Below are positions 9,181 to 24,350 of a stretch of DNA of 64,000 nt, piece after piece. Each line of letters begins with the position of its first letter. Positions within the stretch are counted from its first letter, which is position 1. The translations under genes and the position numbers were made by a program. Source of the DNA: Neoaquamicrobium microcysteis (lineage in GTDB: Bacteria; Pseudomonadota; Alphaproteobacteria; Rhizobiales; Rhizobiaceae); assembly GCF_008180155.1 (NCBI RefSeq), contig NZ_VSZS01000062.1, forward strand, positions 124,001-188,000, read 5' to 3'. The notes below the pieces were generated by a model. The model was given only the letters and a program-made list of their open reading frames with translations. It searched no databases and had not been told where the DNA came from.

Positions 9181-10632
9181 ATGAAGCTCAGCCAGTTTTC
9201 CGGTGTTCTTCCCAACCTCGGCCCCTTGGGGGAAATCGAGGTGACCGGGGTTTCTTCGGATTCGCGCCGGGTGGAACCCGGCTACCTGTTCGCCGCCCTG
9301 CGCGGGACCAAGACTGACGGCTCGGTATTCGCCGCCGATGCGGCGCAGAAGGGCGCGGTAGCCATCCTCGCGGCACCCGGAGCGTTGAGCGAAGTTCCCG
9401 GCGTGCCGGTGATCGTGGTGGACGACCCGCGCCGCGCGCTGGCGCTTGCGGCGGCCACCTTCTACGGCCACCAGCCCGAAACAATGGTCGCCGTGACGGG
9501 CACCAGCGGCAAGACATCGGTCGCTTCCTTCACGCGCCAGATATGGGAGCAGGCGGGCTTTGCCGCAGCCTCTATCGGCACGACAGGCGTGATCGCACCC
9601 GGCCGCGAGGAATATGGATCGCTCACGACGCCGGACCCGGTGGCGCTTCACGCGCTGCTGGCCGAACTGGCCGATGCCGGCGTGACCCATGCATCGATGG
9701 AAGCGTCGAGCCACGGGCTCGACCAGCGCCGCCTCGACGGCGTGCGGCTCGCGGCCGGCGGCTTCACCAACCTGGGTCGCGACCACATGGACTACCACGC
9801 GACGGTGGAGGAGTACCACGCCGCCAAGATGCGCCTGTTTGCGGAGCTTTTGCCACAGGGTGCGCCGGCCGTGATCTTCTCCGACGATCCGTGGTCGGCG
9901 GCCACCATCGACGCGGCGAAGGCTGCCCGGATGGACGTGCTGACGGTCGGACGCAAGGGCTCCTTCCTGCAACTGAAGCGGGTCGAGCACGAGCGCTTCC
10001 GCCAGCGCGCCGAAATCGAGGCCGACGGGACGCTTCATGAGATCGACCTGCCGCTTGCCGGCGACTTCCAGATCGCCAATGCGCTGGTGGCGGCAGGGCT
10101 GGCAATCGCGACCGGGCTCGAAGGCGGCAAGGCGTTGCGCGCGCTGGAAAAGCTTAAAGGTGCGTCCGGCCGGCTCGAACTCGTCGGCACGACGCCCGAC
10201 GGCGCGCCGGTTTATGTCGACTACGCGCACAAGCCCGACGCGCTGGAAAACGTGCTGAAGGCGGTGCGTCCCTTCACCACCGGCCGCGTGGTCGTCGTGT
10301 TCGGATGCGGTGGCGACCGCGACCGGGGCAAGCGCCCGATCATGGGAGAGATCGCTACGCGGCTGGCGGACGTGTCCATCGTCACCGACGACAACCCGCG
10401 CTCCGAGGAGCCGGGGAGCATCCGCGCCGCCATCATGGAAGCCGCCCCCGGCGCCATCGAGATCGGCGACCGGCGTAGCGCGATCCGCGAGGCGGTGGCC
10501 ATGCTGCACGCGGGCGACACGCTGATCGTTGCGGGCAAGGGGCACGAGGAAGGCCAGACGGTCGGCGACGTGACGCTGCCGTTCTCGGACCATGAGGAAG
10601 TGCGCGCCGCGCTTCGGGAGCAGGCGGCATGA
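9181..10632 (+). CDS. murE: UDP-MurNAc-L-Ala-D-Glu:meso-diaminopimelate ligase MurE
   Basis: 483 residues with the Mur-ligase three-domain layout. The ATP P-loop TGTSGKTS is at 106-113. The DNPR motif at 404-407 is the marker of meso-DAP-specific rather than Lys-specific MurE, so the stem peptide should contain meso-DAP as in other Gram-negatives. It adds the third residue to the UDP-MurNAc dipeptide in the cytoplasm. The last 4 bp overlap murF. Confidence 0.96.
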
Positions 10633-18257: not shown

Positions 18258-19219
18258 CGGATGGCGGGGCGTTGCTGCGAAGGCTTGGGGATGCTGCGGC
18301 GAACGTGCGCGGCAGGCTGACGCCCGACGCGCCGATGGACGCGATCACGTGGTTTCGCGCGGGCGGGCCGGCGGAGTTGCTTTTCCAGCCCGCAGACGAA
18401 GAGGATTTGTCCTCGTTTCTCAAGGCTTTGCCGGACGATGTTCCGATAACCGTGGTCGGTGTCGGCTCCAACCTGCTGGTGCGCGAGGCCGGCATTCGCG
18501 GCGTGGTCATCCGGCTGTCGGCCAAGGGATTCGGTCAGGCCGAAGCCACGGGCGACAACACGATTCGCGCCGGGGCGGCGGTACCCGACAAGAAGGTCGC
18601 GGCCGTGGCGCTAGAGGTCGGCATCGGTGGGTTCCACTTTTACCATGGCATCCCCGGTGCGATCGGCGGCGCGCTACGCATGAATGCGGGCGCCAACGGC
18701 GTCGAGACGCGGGAGCGTGTGGTGAGCGTGCGAGCCATCGACCGCCAGGGCGAGGTTCGCGAGTTCTCCAACGCGCAGATGGGCTACGCCTACCGCCATT
18801 CCTCCGCGCCGAAGGATCTGATTTTCGTCAGCGCCGAGTTCGAGGGCTATGCGGAGGACCGCGACGCGATCCGGACCGCGATGGACGCCGTGCAGACGCA
18901 TCGCGAGACAGTCCAGCCGATCCGTGAGAAGACCGGCGGCTCGACCTTCAAAAATCCCGAGGGCACGTCGGCCTGGAAGGAAATCGACAAGGCAGGGTGC
19001 CGCGGTCTGATGATCGGCGGGGCGCAGATATCGCCCATGCACTGCAACTTCATGATCAATACCGGCTCGGCGACGGGATACGATCTAGAGTATCTCGGCG
19101 AGACGGTGCGTGCACGCGTTCTGGAGCATTCGGGTATCAGGCTCGAATGGGAGATCAAGCGCATCGGCGACTTCAAGCCAGGCCACGAGGTGCAGGAATT
19201 TCTGGGCCAGCTGCTCTGA
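18254..19219 (+). CDS. murB: UDP-N-acetylenolpyruvoylglucosamine reductase MurB
   Basis: 321 residues from ATG 18254, chosen for the ATGA overlap with murC; a GTG 36 bp upstream is possible but unneeded. FAD-binding fold with GVGSNLLVR and [16 protein letters not shown]; the active-site Ser lies in [11 protein letters not shown]. It reduces the enolpyruvyl group to lactate, completing UDP-MurNAc. It is the last gene before a 206-bp gap, an unusually large break in this otherwise gapless cluster. Confidence 0.96.
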
Positions 19220-19425
19220 CCCAAGTCCAGCATTTCCGGCCCTCGCACCGGCTTTGTTGCAAAAAGTGAATCCCATCGAATCTCAAGGCCTTGTCACGGA
19301 ATCGTTAGTCTGATTCCTTGGGGTCAGAATCGTTTCCTTGTTTTGAGTCGAGTGTGCGGACGCCGGCGAGTCGCTCGCCGGAAGACTCTGACTCAAACCT
19401 GACGAAACACGTCTAAGGCCCGAGC
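19220..19425. promoter_or_regulatory. murB-ddl intergenic region with a dense GANTC (CcrM site) cluster
   Basis: Nine GANTC sites start at 19268, 19278, 19299, 19312, 19327, 19345, 19368, 19384 and 19390. Among them are a CAAGGCCTTG palindrome (19284-19293), a GGAATC/GATTCC inverted pair (19298-19303, 19312-19317) and two copies of GAATCGTT (19299-19306, 19327-19334). The region faces ddl-ftsQ-ftsA-ftsZ and is the only gap over 100 bp inside the cluster. CcrM methylates GANTC in alphaproteobacteria; a regulatory role here is inferred. Confidence 0.6.
19342..19397. repeat. Long imperfect hairpin upstream of ddl
   Basis: Outer arms TTTGAGTC (19342-19349) and GACTCAAA (19390-19397) pair perfectly; inner arms CCGGCGAG (19363-19370) and CTCGCCGG (19374-19381) pair around a TCG loop. 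No T-tract follows on the plus strand, so it is not a standard terminator. GANTC sites lie in both outer arms. Confidence 0.6.
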
Positions 19426-20373
19426 ATGAGGGGATTTCCGGGCATGGAGAAAAAGAAGCACGTTGCCGTTCTTCTGGGCGGGTTTTCGTCCGAGCGGCCG
19501 GTCTCTCTTTCGTCCGGAAACGCCTGTGCAGACGCTCTCGAAAAGGAAGGCTACCGCGTCACCCGCGTCGATGTGGGGCGCGACGTTTCGAGTGTGCTTG
19601 CGGAGCTGAAGCCGGACGTCGCTTTCAACGCGCTGCACGGGCCTTACGGCGAGGACGGCACGATCCAGGGCGTCCTCGAATACCTCCAGATCCCCTACAC
19701 CCATTCGGGTGTGCTGGCCTCGGCGCTGGCGATGGACAAGGAGCAGGCCAAGCGGGTGGCGAAGTCGGTGGGGATTCCCGTCGCCGAATCACGCGTGATG
19801 AATCGTTTCGATATCGGTAACGCTCACCCGATGAAGCCGCCCTACGTCGTCAAACCGGTGAACGAGGGGTCGAGTTTCGGGGTCGTGATCGTCAAGGAAG
19901 ACCAGTCGCATCCGCCCCAGATCATCACCTCGTCGGAGTGGCGATATGGCGATACGGTGATGGTGGAACGCTTCATTCACGGGCGCGAGCTGACCTGCGC
20001 GGTTATGGGCGATGTGGCGCTGGGCGTGACCGAGATCATCCCCGTCGGCCACTCGTTCTACGATTACGATGCGAAATATGTCGCGGGCGGCTCAAAACAC
20101 GAATGCCCCGCAAAAGTTTCACCCTTTATTTACCAAAAAGTACAGACACTGGCGCTCAAGGCACACCAAGCAATTGGATGTCGTGGCGTCTCCCGGTCGG
20201 ACTTCCGCTACGACGATCGCTATTCCGAGAATGGCGAGTTGGTCTGGCTGGAGGTGAACACCCAGCCGGGCATGACGCCAACGTCGCTGGTGCCTGAGAT
20301 CGCCGCGGAAGCGGGGCATGGTTTTGGTGAGCTTCTGAGTTGGATGGTGGAGGACGCTTCTTGTTCGCGTTGA
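19426..20373 (+). CDS. ddl: D-alanine--D-alanine ligase
   Basis: 315 residues in the ATP-grasp fold. The N-domain has [19 protein letters not shown], the central part has the [11 protein letters not shown] grasp loop, and the C-domain has [15 protein letters not shown] with metal-binding Glu/Asn. It makes the D-Ala-D-Ala that MurF uses. Two starts are possible: 19426, with TAAGG 7 nt upstream, and 19444, which would give 309 aa beginning MEKKKH. The 3' end overlaps ftsQ by 13 bp. Confidence 0.94.
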
Positions 20374-21296
20374 CCTCAGGACGAGGTGGTGGGGCTGGCG
20401 CCGATGCGCGCGGGCGCTGGGCCTTGGCGTCCGGCGGTTTTGTCCTTCCGCGCTGGCTGCGAAAGCCGGTGCGCGCCTTCTCGCGTTTCGCGTCGGGAGA
20501 GATCGAGGCTCCGCCCTATGCGATGGCGATGCTGAGCGCCGCGCTCGTCGGCGGCTTCTCGCTCTACGGAGCGGTTCTCGGCGGACACATGCCAACTGTG
20601 GTGCAGGGCGTGACCGCGAGAACCGGTTTTGCGATCAACGAGATTCGCGTCAGCGGCAATCAGGAGACTTCCGAGATCGACGTGTTCGACCGGGTCGGCC
20701 TCGACGGCTGGACCTCGCTGGTCGGCTTCGATGTCGAGGAAGCGCGCAGCCGCATCGCCAGCCTTCCATGGGTCGAGGGCGTTTCGGTGCGCAAGATCTA
20801 TCCGTCCACGCTGGAGGTGAAGATCGCCGAGCGCACGCCCTACGCCATCTGGCAGCAGGGCACGCGGCTTTCGCTGATCGAGCAGGACGGCAGGCTGATC
20901 GCGCCGCTGGCAAGCGCGCGGCATCATTCGCTTCCGCTGGTCGTCGGCATGGGCGCCGAGGACGTCGCTTCCGGTTTCATCGCCAAGGTTGCGGCTTATC
21001 CGGAGCTGGCCAGCCGCGTGCGCGGCTATGTGCGCGTTTCCGAGCGTCGCTGGGACCTGCGGCTGGAGAACGGCGTGACGGTGAAGCTGCCGGAGCGCGG
21101 TGAGGACAAGGCGCTGCAGGAACTGGTCGCGCTGGATGCGCAGCAGGGGCTCCTGTCGCGCGATATCGAAACTGTCGACATGCGCTTTGCCGACCGGCTC
21201 GTCGTCAAGCTGTCGCCCGATGCGGCGGTGGCACGCGAGGCCGCGCTGAAGGAGCGTCTGGGCAAGAACTACAAGCCGGCGGAGCGTAACATATGA
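20361..21296 (+). CDS. ftsQ: Cell division protein FtsQ (TTG start)
   Basis: 311 residues. The start is placed at TTG 20361 because GGAGG lies 7 nt before it; another TTG at 20340 has no such site. The protein is bitopic: a basic cytoplasmic tail (1-50), one membrane span (about 54-75), a periplasmic POTRA domain ([11 protein letters not shown], about 88-160) and the FtsQ domain. It recruits FtsL/FtsB and links early and late divisome proteins. It overlaps ddl by 13 bp and ftsA by 4 bp. Confidence 0.92.
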
Positions 21297-22606
21297 GCTG
21301 GCTTGGCGGACAGAAGGACACGGCGGCCGGGCGTTCCGGCATCGTCACCGTGCTGGACGTGGGTTCCACCAAGGTTTGCTGCGTCATCGGCCAGCTGAAG
21401 CCCTGCGAGGAGAGCGAGCGGCTGCCGGGCCGTACGCACAAGATCAAGGTGATCGGCATCGGCCACCAGAAATCGCAGGGCGTGAAGTCCGGCGTCATCG
21501 TGGAGCTGGATCGTGCCGAGCAGGCGGTGCGGCTGGCGGTGGATGCCGCGGAGCGCATGGCAGGCCTGACCGTCGAATCGCTTTTCGTGAACGTTTCGGC
21601 CGGACGGATGAAGAGCTCGATCTTCTCGTCGTCGGTGAACCTGGGCGGCCACGAGGCGGGCGAGGGCGACATCAAGCGCGTCCTGGCGGCCGGCGCCAAG
21701 CAGGCGCTGCGCGCCGAGCGCGAAGTGGTGCATTCGCTGCCGGTGGGCTTTTCGCTGGATGCCGAGCGCGGCGTGCGCGACCCGCGCGGCATGATCGGCG
21801 ACGTGCTGGGCGTGGACATGCACGTGCTGACGGCCGATGCCGCGCCGCTGCGCAATCTGGAGCTTTGCGTCAACCGCTCGCACCTTTCGGTCGAGCGCAT
21901 GGTCGCGACGCCTTATGCGAGCGGCCTGTCCGCGCTGGTGGACGACGAGGCGGAAATGGGCGCTGCCTGCATCGACATGGGTGGCGGCACGACCACCATC
22001 TCCATCTTCGCGGAAGGCAAGTTCGTCTATGCCGAGGTGCTGCCAATAGGCGGCGGGCACGTGACGATGGACCTTGCCAAGGGTCTTTCGACCGGGCGCG
22101 AACATGCCGAGCGGCTGAAGGTCATGCACGGCTCCGCGCTGCCGGCGATCGACGACGACCGCGACATGGTGACCATCCAGCCGATCGGCCCGGATGATGG
22201 CGAGATGCCGCAGCATGCGCCGCGCTCGGTGATGAACAAGATCATCCGCGCGCGCATCGAGGAGACGCTGGAGATCGTGCGCGACCGACTCAACAAGTCG
22301 GGCTTCGCAGGCGTGATCGGCAAGCGTGTGGTGCTGACGGGCGGCGCCAGCCAGCTTGCCGGACTGCCGGAAGCGGCACGACGCATTCTCGCACGCAACG
22401 TGCGGCTGGGCAGGCCGCTCGGCGTGACAGGGTTGCCGGAAGCGGCGAAGGGACCAGCCTTCGCCACAACGGTTGGCCTGCTGATCTATCCGCAGGTTGC
22501 AGGCGTGGAGAGCAGGTACGGAAAAGGCGGTGCCTTGCGTTTCAAGGGCACGGGGACGGGCGGCAGGCTTCAGCGTGTCGGCCAGTGGTTCAAGGACAGT
22601 TTCTAA
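21293..22606 (+). CDS. ftsA: Cell division protein FtsA
   Basis: 437-residue actin-fold ATPase that tethers FtsZ to the membrane. The phosphate loops [11 protein letters not shown] (near 20) and [14 protein letters not shown] (near 223) are present, and [13 protein letters not shown] marks the adenosine motif. The C-terminus ends VGQWFKDSF, an amphipathic helix expected to insert into the membrane. Overlap with ftsQ is ATGA; 67 bp separate it from ftsZ. Confidence 0.96.
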
Positions 22607-22673: not shown

Positions 22674-24350
22674 ATGAGCATCAATCTGCAGAAGCCGGAC
22701 ATCACCGAACTGAAGCCCCGGATCACCGTGTTCGGTGTCGGTGGCGGTGGCGGCAACGCCGTGAACAACATGATCACCGCGGGATTGCGTGGCGTTGAGT
22801 TCGTCGTGGCCAACACCGACGCGCAGGCGCTGACCATGTCGAAGTCCGAGCGGATGATCCAGCTCGGCGCGCATGTCACCGAAGGCCTTGGCGCCGGCTC
22901 GCAGCCCGAGGTTGGCCGCGCGGCGGCCGAAGAGTGCATCGACGAGATCATGGACCATCTGTCCAATACCCATATGTGCTTCGTCACCGCCGGCATGGGC
23001 GGCGGCACGGGCACGGGCGCTGCCCCGGTGGTGGCGCGTGCGGCACGTGAGAAGGGCATCCTGACCGTCGGCGTCGTGACCAAGCCGTTCCACTTCGAAG
23101 GCCAGCGCCGCATGAAGACAGCGGATATGGGTATCGAGGAACTGCAGAAGAGCGTCGATACGCTCATCGTCATCCCGAACCAGAACCTATTCCGCATCGC
23201 CAACGACAAGACCACCTTCGCCGACGCCTTCGCGATGGCCGATCAGGTGCTCTATTCGGGTGTGGCCTGCATCACCGACCTGATGGTCAAGGAAGGCCTC
23301 ATCAACCTCGATTTCGCCGACGTTCGCTCGGTGATGCGCGAGATGGGCAAGGCCATGATGGGCACGGGCGAAGCTTCGGGCGAGGGCCGTGCGATGGCAG
23401 CAGCCGAAGCCGCGATCGCCAACCCGCTGCTCGACGAGACCTCGATGAAGGGCGCACGCGGCCTGCTGATCTCCATCACCGGTGGTCGCGACCTGACGCT
23501 GTTCGAGGTCGACGAAGCCGCGACCCGCATCCGCGAGGAAGTGGATCAGGACGCCAACATCATCCTTGGCGCGACCTTCGATGAGGAACTGGAGGGCGTC
23601 ATCCGCGTGTCTGTGGTTGCGACCGGGATCGACAAGTCGGCAGCGGAGATCAACACCCCGCCGATCTCCATCCGCCCGCCGCAGAAGCCGGTACAGCAGC
23701 CCATGCAGCAGCGTCCGGTCGAAATCCGCCCGGCCGTGGCGGCAGCCCCGGTACAGCCGGAAGCACCGCGCGCCAGCGATCCGGTTGCCGAGGCTATCCG
23801 CATCGCGGAAATGAACGCCGAACTGGCAGCCGCGCCGCGCGCCGCCGCCGAGCAGGAGTTCCGGCCGCAGAGCAGGCTGTTCGCGCAGCCGGCGGCAGAG
23901 CCTGTCGCGCAGCCCGTCGTCCAGCAGGAGTTCGCTCGCCCGGCAGCGCCGGTTGCCGCTCCGGTGCAGCAGGCCGCAGCACCCGCGCCGGTGCAGCCGC
24001 GCATGCCGCGTGTGGAAGACTTCCCGCCGGTCGTTCGTGCCGAGCTGGAAGCCCCGCTTGCGCACGACCATGAAGAGCGCGGCCCCATGGGCCTGCTCAA
24101 GCGCCTGACGCAGGGCCTGTCCTCCCGCCGCGAGGAAGAGCCGGCACGTCTGCAGCCCGCACAGCCGCGCGAGCCGCGCCTGCGCCAGCCTGCACCCGAG
24201 CAGCGCCGCGCGCCTGCACAGGACGCGCAGCTCTACGCACCGCAGCGCGGACAGCTCGACCAGCAGGGACGCGTTTCGGTCCAGCCGCGCACGCATCAGG
24301 AAGACGACCAGCTTGAAATCCCGGCCTTCCTGCGCCGGCAGGCGAACTGA
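22674..24350 (+). CDS. ftsZ: Cell division GTPase FtsZ, long-linker form
   Basis: 558 residues from ATG 22674, with AGGACGAGGAC upstream. The tubulin-like GTPase core (about 15-330) has GGGTGTG at 109-115 and NxxxxD-type synergy residues. A long Pro/Gln/Ala-rich linker (about 335-540) follows, and the conserved C-terminal peptide [12 protein letters not shown] ends the protein and is expected to bind FtsA. The linker makes it about 175 residues longer than the 383-aa E. coli FtsZ, as known in rhizobia and Caulobacter. It forms the Z ring. Confidence 0.97.

Follow-up and report, generated by a model that had tools for sequence, protein, structure and literature searches.

A conserved GANTC module upstream of ddl-ftsQ-ftsA-ftsZ in Neoaquamicrobium microcysteis and its relatives, a likely CcrM-dependent promoter of division genes

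In this study, we performed a comparative analysis of the murB-ddl intergenic region of Neoaquamicrobium microcysteis, contained in a stretch of 64,000 nucleotides (the window), together with the corresponding regions of related genomes. Judged by sequence comparison, this region contains a genuine regulatory GANTC module that is maintained by selection in the host's family. It is rather likely that the region constitutes a sigma70-type promoter of ddl-ftsQ-ftsA-ftsZ whose output would depend on methylation by CcrM. GcrA probably reads this promoter, and activation assisted by GcrA is slightly favored over direct repression by full methylation. From the arrangement and conservation of the sites we infer promoter activity, the start site, methylation, GcrA binding and the direction of the effect.

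Results

Gene Context and GANTC Density

The genes around the gap are ordered murC, murB, ddl, ftsQ (by a weak match), ftsA and ftsZ. The gap and the genes downstream of it are:

19220..19443, + strand: murB-ddl intergenic region (murB stop codon at 19217-19219)
19444..20373, + strand: ddl, first gene downstream (NF002378, 408.8 bits)
20340..21296, + strand: ftsQ, longest ORF, listed with a TTG start (assigned by position and weak FtsQ matches)
21293..22606, + strand: ftsA (TIGR01174, 350 bits)
22674..24350, + strand: ftsZ, at the end of the presumed operon (TIGR00065, 405.7 bits)

The ddl start codon is probably the ATG at 19444, where the starts of relatives align, and a further in-frame ATG is present at 19426. 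FtsQ profile matches were far under the curated cut-off (best 47.6 bits versus 366). From the ORF at 9181 (murE) to 22674 (ftsZ) this is the sole gap longer than 100 bp, in agreement with the original prediction, which had placed a GANTC cluster in the only sizeable gap of the gene cluster. The nine sites that it had claimed were recounted within 127 bp (19268-19394), beginning at 19268, 19278, 19299, 19312, 19327, 19345, 19368, 19384, and 19390, a density that recurs nowhere else in the 26.1% of the host genome sampled. The cluster is located 3.3 kb upstream of ftsZ; the 200 bp directly upstream of ftsZ contain no GANTC, since the nearest preceding site is at 22287 and ftsZ starts at 22674.

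The whole 64-kb window contains 80 GANTC sites versus 299 expected from dinucleotide shuffles, so the motif is depleted elsewhere in the window. About 0.6 sites per 127 bp would be expected from the dinucleotide composition of the window, and 0.15 from the sampled host genome, in which 1464 sites were counted in 1.263 Mb (1.16 per kb). At the latter rate, the Poisson probability of at least nine sites was 7.8e-14 per 127-bp window and ∼4e-7 genome-wide, rising to ∼0.006 genome-wide if a three-fold higher GANTC rate was assumed. When the gap was ranked within the sample (1.263 Mb, 26.1% of the host genome, including the C47 and C35 stretches, 40 kb, which were picked because of hits), its nine sites compared with at most five per 127 bp elsewhere. 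The separate clusters, window included, comprised one of nine, two of five, two of four and 19 of three sites.

One of the five-site clusters occupies 45 bp (host contig C43:130001-130045, equivalent to L125:10001-10045) next to a DnaA-box-like TTATCCACA. Just downstream is an ORF that, from its sequence, we take to be hemE, and the hemE neighborhood is the usual site of the alphaproteobacterial origin; this stretch, the runner-up to the ddl gap in density within the sampled genome, is probably the chromosome origin. The other five-site cluster lies at C41:4653-4762. Three further GANTC sites were observed within 32 bp of the ddl coding sequence (window 19773-19804).

Structure of the Conserved Module

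In the alignment of relatives, the core of the module reads CTTGCCA-N2-GAATC-N8-GATTC, with CTCT ahead of GATTC, then TTTGAGTCG. The full module consists of CTTGYCA, GAATC 2 bp on, TCTGATTC at a fixed distance and YGAKTCG 23-27 nt later. In the window, the elements are:

19268..19282, + strand: S1 and S2, GAATC at 19268 and 19278, upstream of the core (in some aligned relatives)
19290..19296, + strand: -35-like CTTGTCA (putative -35)
19299..19303, + strand: S3, GAATC between the putative -35 and -10 (GANTC in 50/76 cores)
19309..19316, + strand: TCTGATTC with S4 (GATTC, 19312-19316), putative -10 region
19327..19331, + strand: S5, GAATC, lineage-specific (mainly same-genus rows)
19344..19350, + strand: S6 and flanks, TGAGTCG, an instance of YGAKTCK with GANTC at 19345-19349 (69/76 cores)
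19368..19372, + strand: S7, GAGTC in the inverted repeat CCGGCGAG-TCG-CTCGCCGG (19363-19381)
19384..19394, + strand: S8 and S9, tandem GACTCTGACTC with a 6-bp period (partly conserved pair)

Cores were picked by a score of at least 15/22 on the pattern CTTGCCA..GAATC..CTCTGATTC, and the conservation of columns between CTTG and GATTC is therefore partly due to selection of the rows; the spacing from CTTG to GATTC, gapless and constant even where S3 is lost, is likewise fixed by the search pattern. S6 played no part in the choice of the 76 non-redundant cores and was required for the rows of the S6-anchored and 47-row alignments. The term invariant refers to these 47 aligned rows of 69, from which nearly all Rhizobium-type rows were left out. 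Locus L012, which contains N, and rows with less than 30 bp ahead of the core were dropped from the core alignments.

The -35-like element is CTTGCCA in most aligned relatives, and its TTG is invariant across the 47 rows, as is TCTGATTC. Among the 76 cores, S3 is GANTC in 50 (GAATC 44, GAGTC 3, GACTC 2, GATTC 1), S4 is GATTC in 73, and S6 is GANTC in 71, with a third base of G in 47, T in 23 and A in one. The extended form YGAKTCK is found at S6 in 69 cores, and two of the five cores lacking S6 differ by a single change to GGGTC. The distance from S4 to S6 is 23-27 nt in 70 of 71 cases, and in the S6-anchored alignment information falls to background from the next base on. A promoter that uses S6 as its -35 or -10, or that has its -10 downstream of S6, was considered and rejected, because no conserved column follows S6 and the distance between S4 and S6 varies.

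Of the nine sites, S3, S4, and S6 alone (19299, 19312, and 19345) are deeply conserved; conservation of the S8/S9 pair (19384/19390) is partial, and the remaining sites look lineage-specific. The view that the sites are selected rather than random is thus supported by their density and by the conserved module, whereas two particulars of the original prediction fared less well. GAATCGTT is indeed repeated (19299 and 19327), with the second copy seen in near relatives only, and the inverted GGAATC/GATTCC pair, which had been regarded as a sign of design, is largely trivial for palindromic sites, because GAATC and GATTC are reverse complements of each other. As a separate observation, a GANTCNGANTC tandem occurs within the last 130 bp before ddl at 33 of the 109 family loci; in 1.199 Mb of sampled host DNA, excluding the window, GANTCNGANTC occurs twice, once in the gcrA leader.

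A leader RNA element (a hairpin or attenuator), in which the GANTC-like sequences would be no more than pairing arms, was also considered. S6 and S9 are able to pair around an 8-bp stem in the window, in the centroid fold too, and the predicted folds of 41 of 69 leaders have S6 mostly base-paired. Such an element is nevertheless highly improbable and was rejected. The fold in the window was no better than that of shuffles (z -0.13), Rfam gave only a sub-threshold ZTP match (18.7 versus 39 bits), no terminator was called in the gap, and the pairing of S6 was inconsistent over the 69 leaders, 29 of which allow exact pairing with a downstream GANTC while 27 have no such site; moreover, any two GANTC sites are near-complementary.

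Other regulatory elements were also searched for in the gap. It has no TTAA and hence no CtrA box (TTAA-N7-TTAA or TTAACC), no DnaA box by a simple pattern, and no GTTC on the + strand or, by eye, GAAC that could form a LexA/SOS operator (GTTC-N7-GTTC). A BLAST search for copies of the gap elsewhere in the host genome returned weak short matches only (best E 0.003).

Distribution Among Relatives

Regions upstream of ddl were taken from 80 named loci and further relatives, and 198 of 199 family genomes were matched. The 109 family loci are those with upstream DNA and comprise the host and its relatives, mostly one per genus for part of them; on the basis of the named carriers, the host's family was taken to be Rhizobiaceae in the wide sense. 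The core was present at 80 of these loci and the full module at 75. At 25 additional named family-side loci, not counted among the 109, the proportions were lower, with 13 and 12, and in the pooled distinct regions 91/132 and 85/132. None of the 56 comparison loci, mostly outside the family, had the core; 55 of them are truly outside, since L041 (Fulvimarina) turned out to be a family member, and L241, an unrelated short contig, was left out. The mean number of GANTC sites per 300 bp upstream of ddl was 4.78 at the 109 family loci versus 0.89 at the 56 comparison loci, and at the former GANTC outnumbered every other one of the 16 palindromic XYNY'X' pentamers, the next reaching 2.81.

In a Ddl tree of 135 rows, 55 of them with the module, 10 label changes were counted versus ∼43 in shuffles, and all module carriers fell inside one part of the tree. 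A presumed single gain with several losses fits this pattern, many branches in that part being weak. Among the named loci, those of Mesorhizobium, Aliihoeflea, Oryzicola, Chelativorans, an Ochrobactrum and Rhizobium tropici are examples with the module, and those of R. esperanzae, R. anhuiense, R. alvei, Pseudorhizobium and three Neorhizobium are examples without it. The core is dispensable in some lineages, because it is absent from 29/109 family loci and 12/25 named family-side loci. Compared across Hyphomicrobiales, as had been proposed, the module is therefore kept in the host's family but not throughout the order.

Two further observations concern individual groups of loci. At 24 loci (Rhizobium-type where named), ddl is preceded by a conserved GTTAACNAAAGTAAA..TTCRTTAACC, CtrA-like by eye, which is found 132-184 bp before ddl codon 11 (L015, L018, L019, L020, L023, L025, L026, L100, L105, and others); at some loci without the GANTC module, this element may reflect a rewiring of the promoter. 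L012 is a MAG contig that bears the label Sphingomonadaceae although its Ddl clusters with the host's family; its murB-ddl gap contains 11 GANTC sites in an apparent repeated block, with N within.

The host encodes GcrA (PF07750, 194.6 bits) and a 383-aa frame with a RAMA domain (PF18755, 69.4 bits) that was read as CcrM. GcrA was found in 60/60 sampled relatives and a RAMA-domain protein in 59/60, so both genes are also present where the module is absent; the only sampled relative without a RAMA match, G004, carries the module (L240). The original prediction of a methylation-gated internal promoter is thus partly supported: it agrees with the selected sites, with the GcrA and CcrM-type genes of the host and with the conserved extended motif, and an internal promoter at the head of the division genes is likely.

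Related Promoters of a Sensor Kinase Gene and gcrA

A genome search with a sequence-only model of the core, in which 150 of 682 first-look candidates were scored, gave 49.6 bits at the ddl locus and one other, weak match (14.2 bits, E 0.145). This second place (C35:46895-46925; L264/L243) lies 58-83 bp upstream of the gene for a 776-aa PAS-HisKA-HATPase kinase, which we take to be of the PleC/DivJ/PdhS type. It reads TAGACA-N4-GAATC-N6-GATTC-N8-CGATTCG, and its GATTC begins 15 bp after the -35-like hexamer, the same geometry as at ddl. Of 30 kinase loci, 20 have the three-site arrangement (YGATTCG in 15, AGATTCG in 5) and 10 lack it; two of the 20 belong to families of the order other than the host's (L280, L285). 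In the host, the kinase promoter adjoins a pepN-like gene.

Upstream of host gcrA, five GANTC sites lie within 179 bp and are mostly retained in near relatives (L262:9099-9250, contig C47). The block CTTGTCACGGANTC is common to the gcrA promoter and the ddl gap; gcrA is also preceded by CTTGTCACGGAGTC, as in ddl, and by a GATTCGGATTC tandem near its start codon. The ddl gap accordingly has the gcrA-type trait, a GANTC cluster with the CTTGTCAC-GGANTC block seen at host gcrA, while no TCTGATTC-YGAKTCG module was seen at host gcrA. The element CTTGYCA-N2-GANTC was found upstream of gcrA at 16 of 30 loci. In the sampled host DNA, TCTGATTCYTT occurs in the ddl and kinase promoters only, and TTGYCA-N2-GANTC has three occurrences, at ddl, at gcrA and at one further site; these counts are not blind, because the kinase and gcrA stretches were fetched for their hits.

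These related promoters bear on the view that the gap holds an ordinary constitutive promoter, with GANTC in its -35/-10 region by chance and the remaining sites acquired by drift because the gap is low in GC. The cluster is absent from several lineages, as this view would allow, and the near-fixed third base of S4 (GATTC in 73/76 cores) means that S4 is constrained as a sequence and not as GANTC alone. However, S6, 23-27 nt past the core, varies exactly at its third base, no palindromic pentamer is commoner than GANTC in these regions though it is depleted elsewhere, and parts of the arrangement recur at the kinase and gcrA promoters, which together make the constitutive view quite unlikely.

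Discussion

No consensus sigma70 promoter was called in the gap, and S3 and S4 fit an inferred -35/-10 pair. By eye, GATTCC at 19312-19317, 15 bp after TTGTCA, would be the putative -10; this assignment is weak, with 3/6 consensus positions matched in relatives and 2/6 in the window and a spacer of 15 bp. In the favored reading, S3 would lie between the putative -35 (CTTGTCA) and -10, S4 would be the putative -10 itself, and the methylatable A of S4 would take the position of the key -11 A of the -10 hexamer, with S6 as the extended YGAKTCG motif through which GcrA would activate. Passage of the replication fork would turn the sites from fully methylated to hemi-methylated until CcrM restores methylation late in the cycle, and the hemi-methylation interval could thereby create a replication-linked window of division-gene expression.

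Several published observations are consistent with this reading. GcrA, which binds region 2 of sigma, stimulates the formation of open complexes when promoters are methylated (PMC7403470). In Caulobacter, YGAKTCK/TGATTCG was hypothesized to be the motif required for activation by GcrA (PMC7987155), and methylation at conserved CGACTC sites promotes the transcription of ftsZ and mipZ (PMC3708114); the TGAGTCG of S6 carries CGACTC on the opposite strand. GANTC was enriched 4.4-4.7-fold in GcrA ChIP peaks of B. abortus (PMC6813329). Caulobacter cell-cycle starts that have a GANTC in the -35/-10 interval become active at 40-60 minutes (PMC4287350), and by analogy S3 would be a site of this kind. 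At A. tumefaciens repE, a GANTC overlaps the -10 region, and its mutation blocked most activity (PMC11514494). Against the favored reading, S6 would be ∼17-20 nt downstream of the inferred start, an unusual place for a GcrA site. GcrA targets in Brevundimonas yielded no extended motif (PMC7987155). In A. tumefaciens depleted of CcrM, the drop in ftsZ was below 2-fold in minimal medium and did not reach significance in complex medium (PMC11514494).

Full methylation might instead weaken the binding of RNA polymerase directly, so that fork passage would release a burst of expression through hemi-methylation and free of GcrA. In A. tumefaciens, methylation reduces the activity of the gcrA promoter, an effect also seen in E. 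coli that produces active CcrM (PMC11514494), and resemblances at ddl point the same way, namely the block CTTGTCACGGANTC in common with the host gcrA promoter, the CTTGYCA-N2-GANTC element before gcrA in 16/30 loci, and the location of S3 and S4 within the putative core promoter. This mechanism, however, leaves unexplained the GcrA-type flanks of S6, its third base of G or T in 70/71 cases and its position outside the core promoter, and we regard it as rather doubtful. The repression of A. tumefaciens gcrA by methylation and the slight response of its ftsZ to CcrM depletion speak against a simple activation model, and methylation at ddl may therefore act in either direction.

Beyond the ddl gap, we tentatively raise the possibility, less likely than the promoter itself, of a promoter class in Rhizobiaceae (wide sense) in which a CcrM site would serve as the -10, with its A at -11, and a downstream YGAKTCG would recruit GcrA. 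Such a class might tie ddl-ftsQAZ, a PleC/DivJ-type kinase and gcrA to fork passage and contribute to the essentiality of CcrM, with some Rhizobium rewired to a TTAACC-type site.

Why several Rhizobiales cannot do without CcrM is a matter of debate. Control of ftsZ by methylation in Rhizobiales has been argued against, since GANTC is infrequent in their ftsZ promoters (PMC3708114); GANTC sites upstream of cell-cycle genes were counted by Brilli 2010, who could derive no control from these counts (PMC2877005), and later work on A. tumefaciens CcrM points to repC and ori2 (PMC11514494). The relevant sections of PMC3708114 and PMC2877005 do not mention ddl, and no paper with GANTC and ddl together as whole words was found in the literature collection searched. 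The module bears on the published view that CcrM of Rhizobiales does not act via the ftsZ promoter: as it heads the ddl-fts genes and not ftsZ, the link between methylation and FtsZ may have been sought in the wrong place. If true, FtsZ would be controlled at the level of the operon, which searches confined to the ftsZ promoter would miss, and lineages with and without the module would offer a natural experiment.

Among known systems, the A. tumefaciens gcrA promoter, with six GANTC sites in 250 bp (PMC11514494), resembles the ddl gap as a GANTC-rich promoter of a cell-cycle gene; in that promoter methylation lowers activity, the comparison being made by description. With the GcrA-activated YGAKTCK promoters described in PMC7987155 and PMC8725594, the ddl gap has the extended motif in common, and the host has GcrA and a CcrM-type protein; here, in distinction, S6, the candidate GcrA site, lies downstream of the putative -10. 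The ftsZ and mipZ promoters of Caulobacter (PMC3708114) are likewise division-gene promoters that contain GANTC with a CGACTC/GAGTCG core conserved in relatives. In Caulobacter, however, the site is directly upstream of ftsZ, whereas here several sites, with a rigid S3-S4 core, stand at the head of ddl-ftsQ-ftsA-ftsZ in another lineage.
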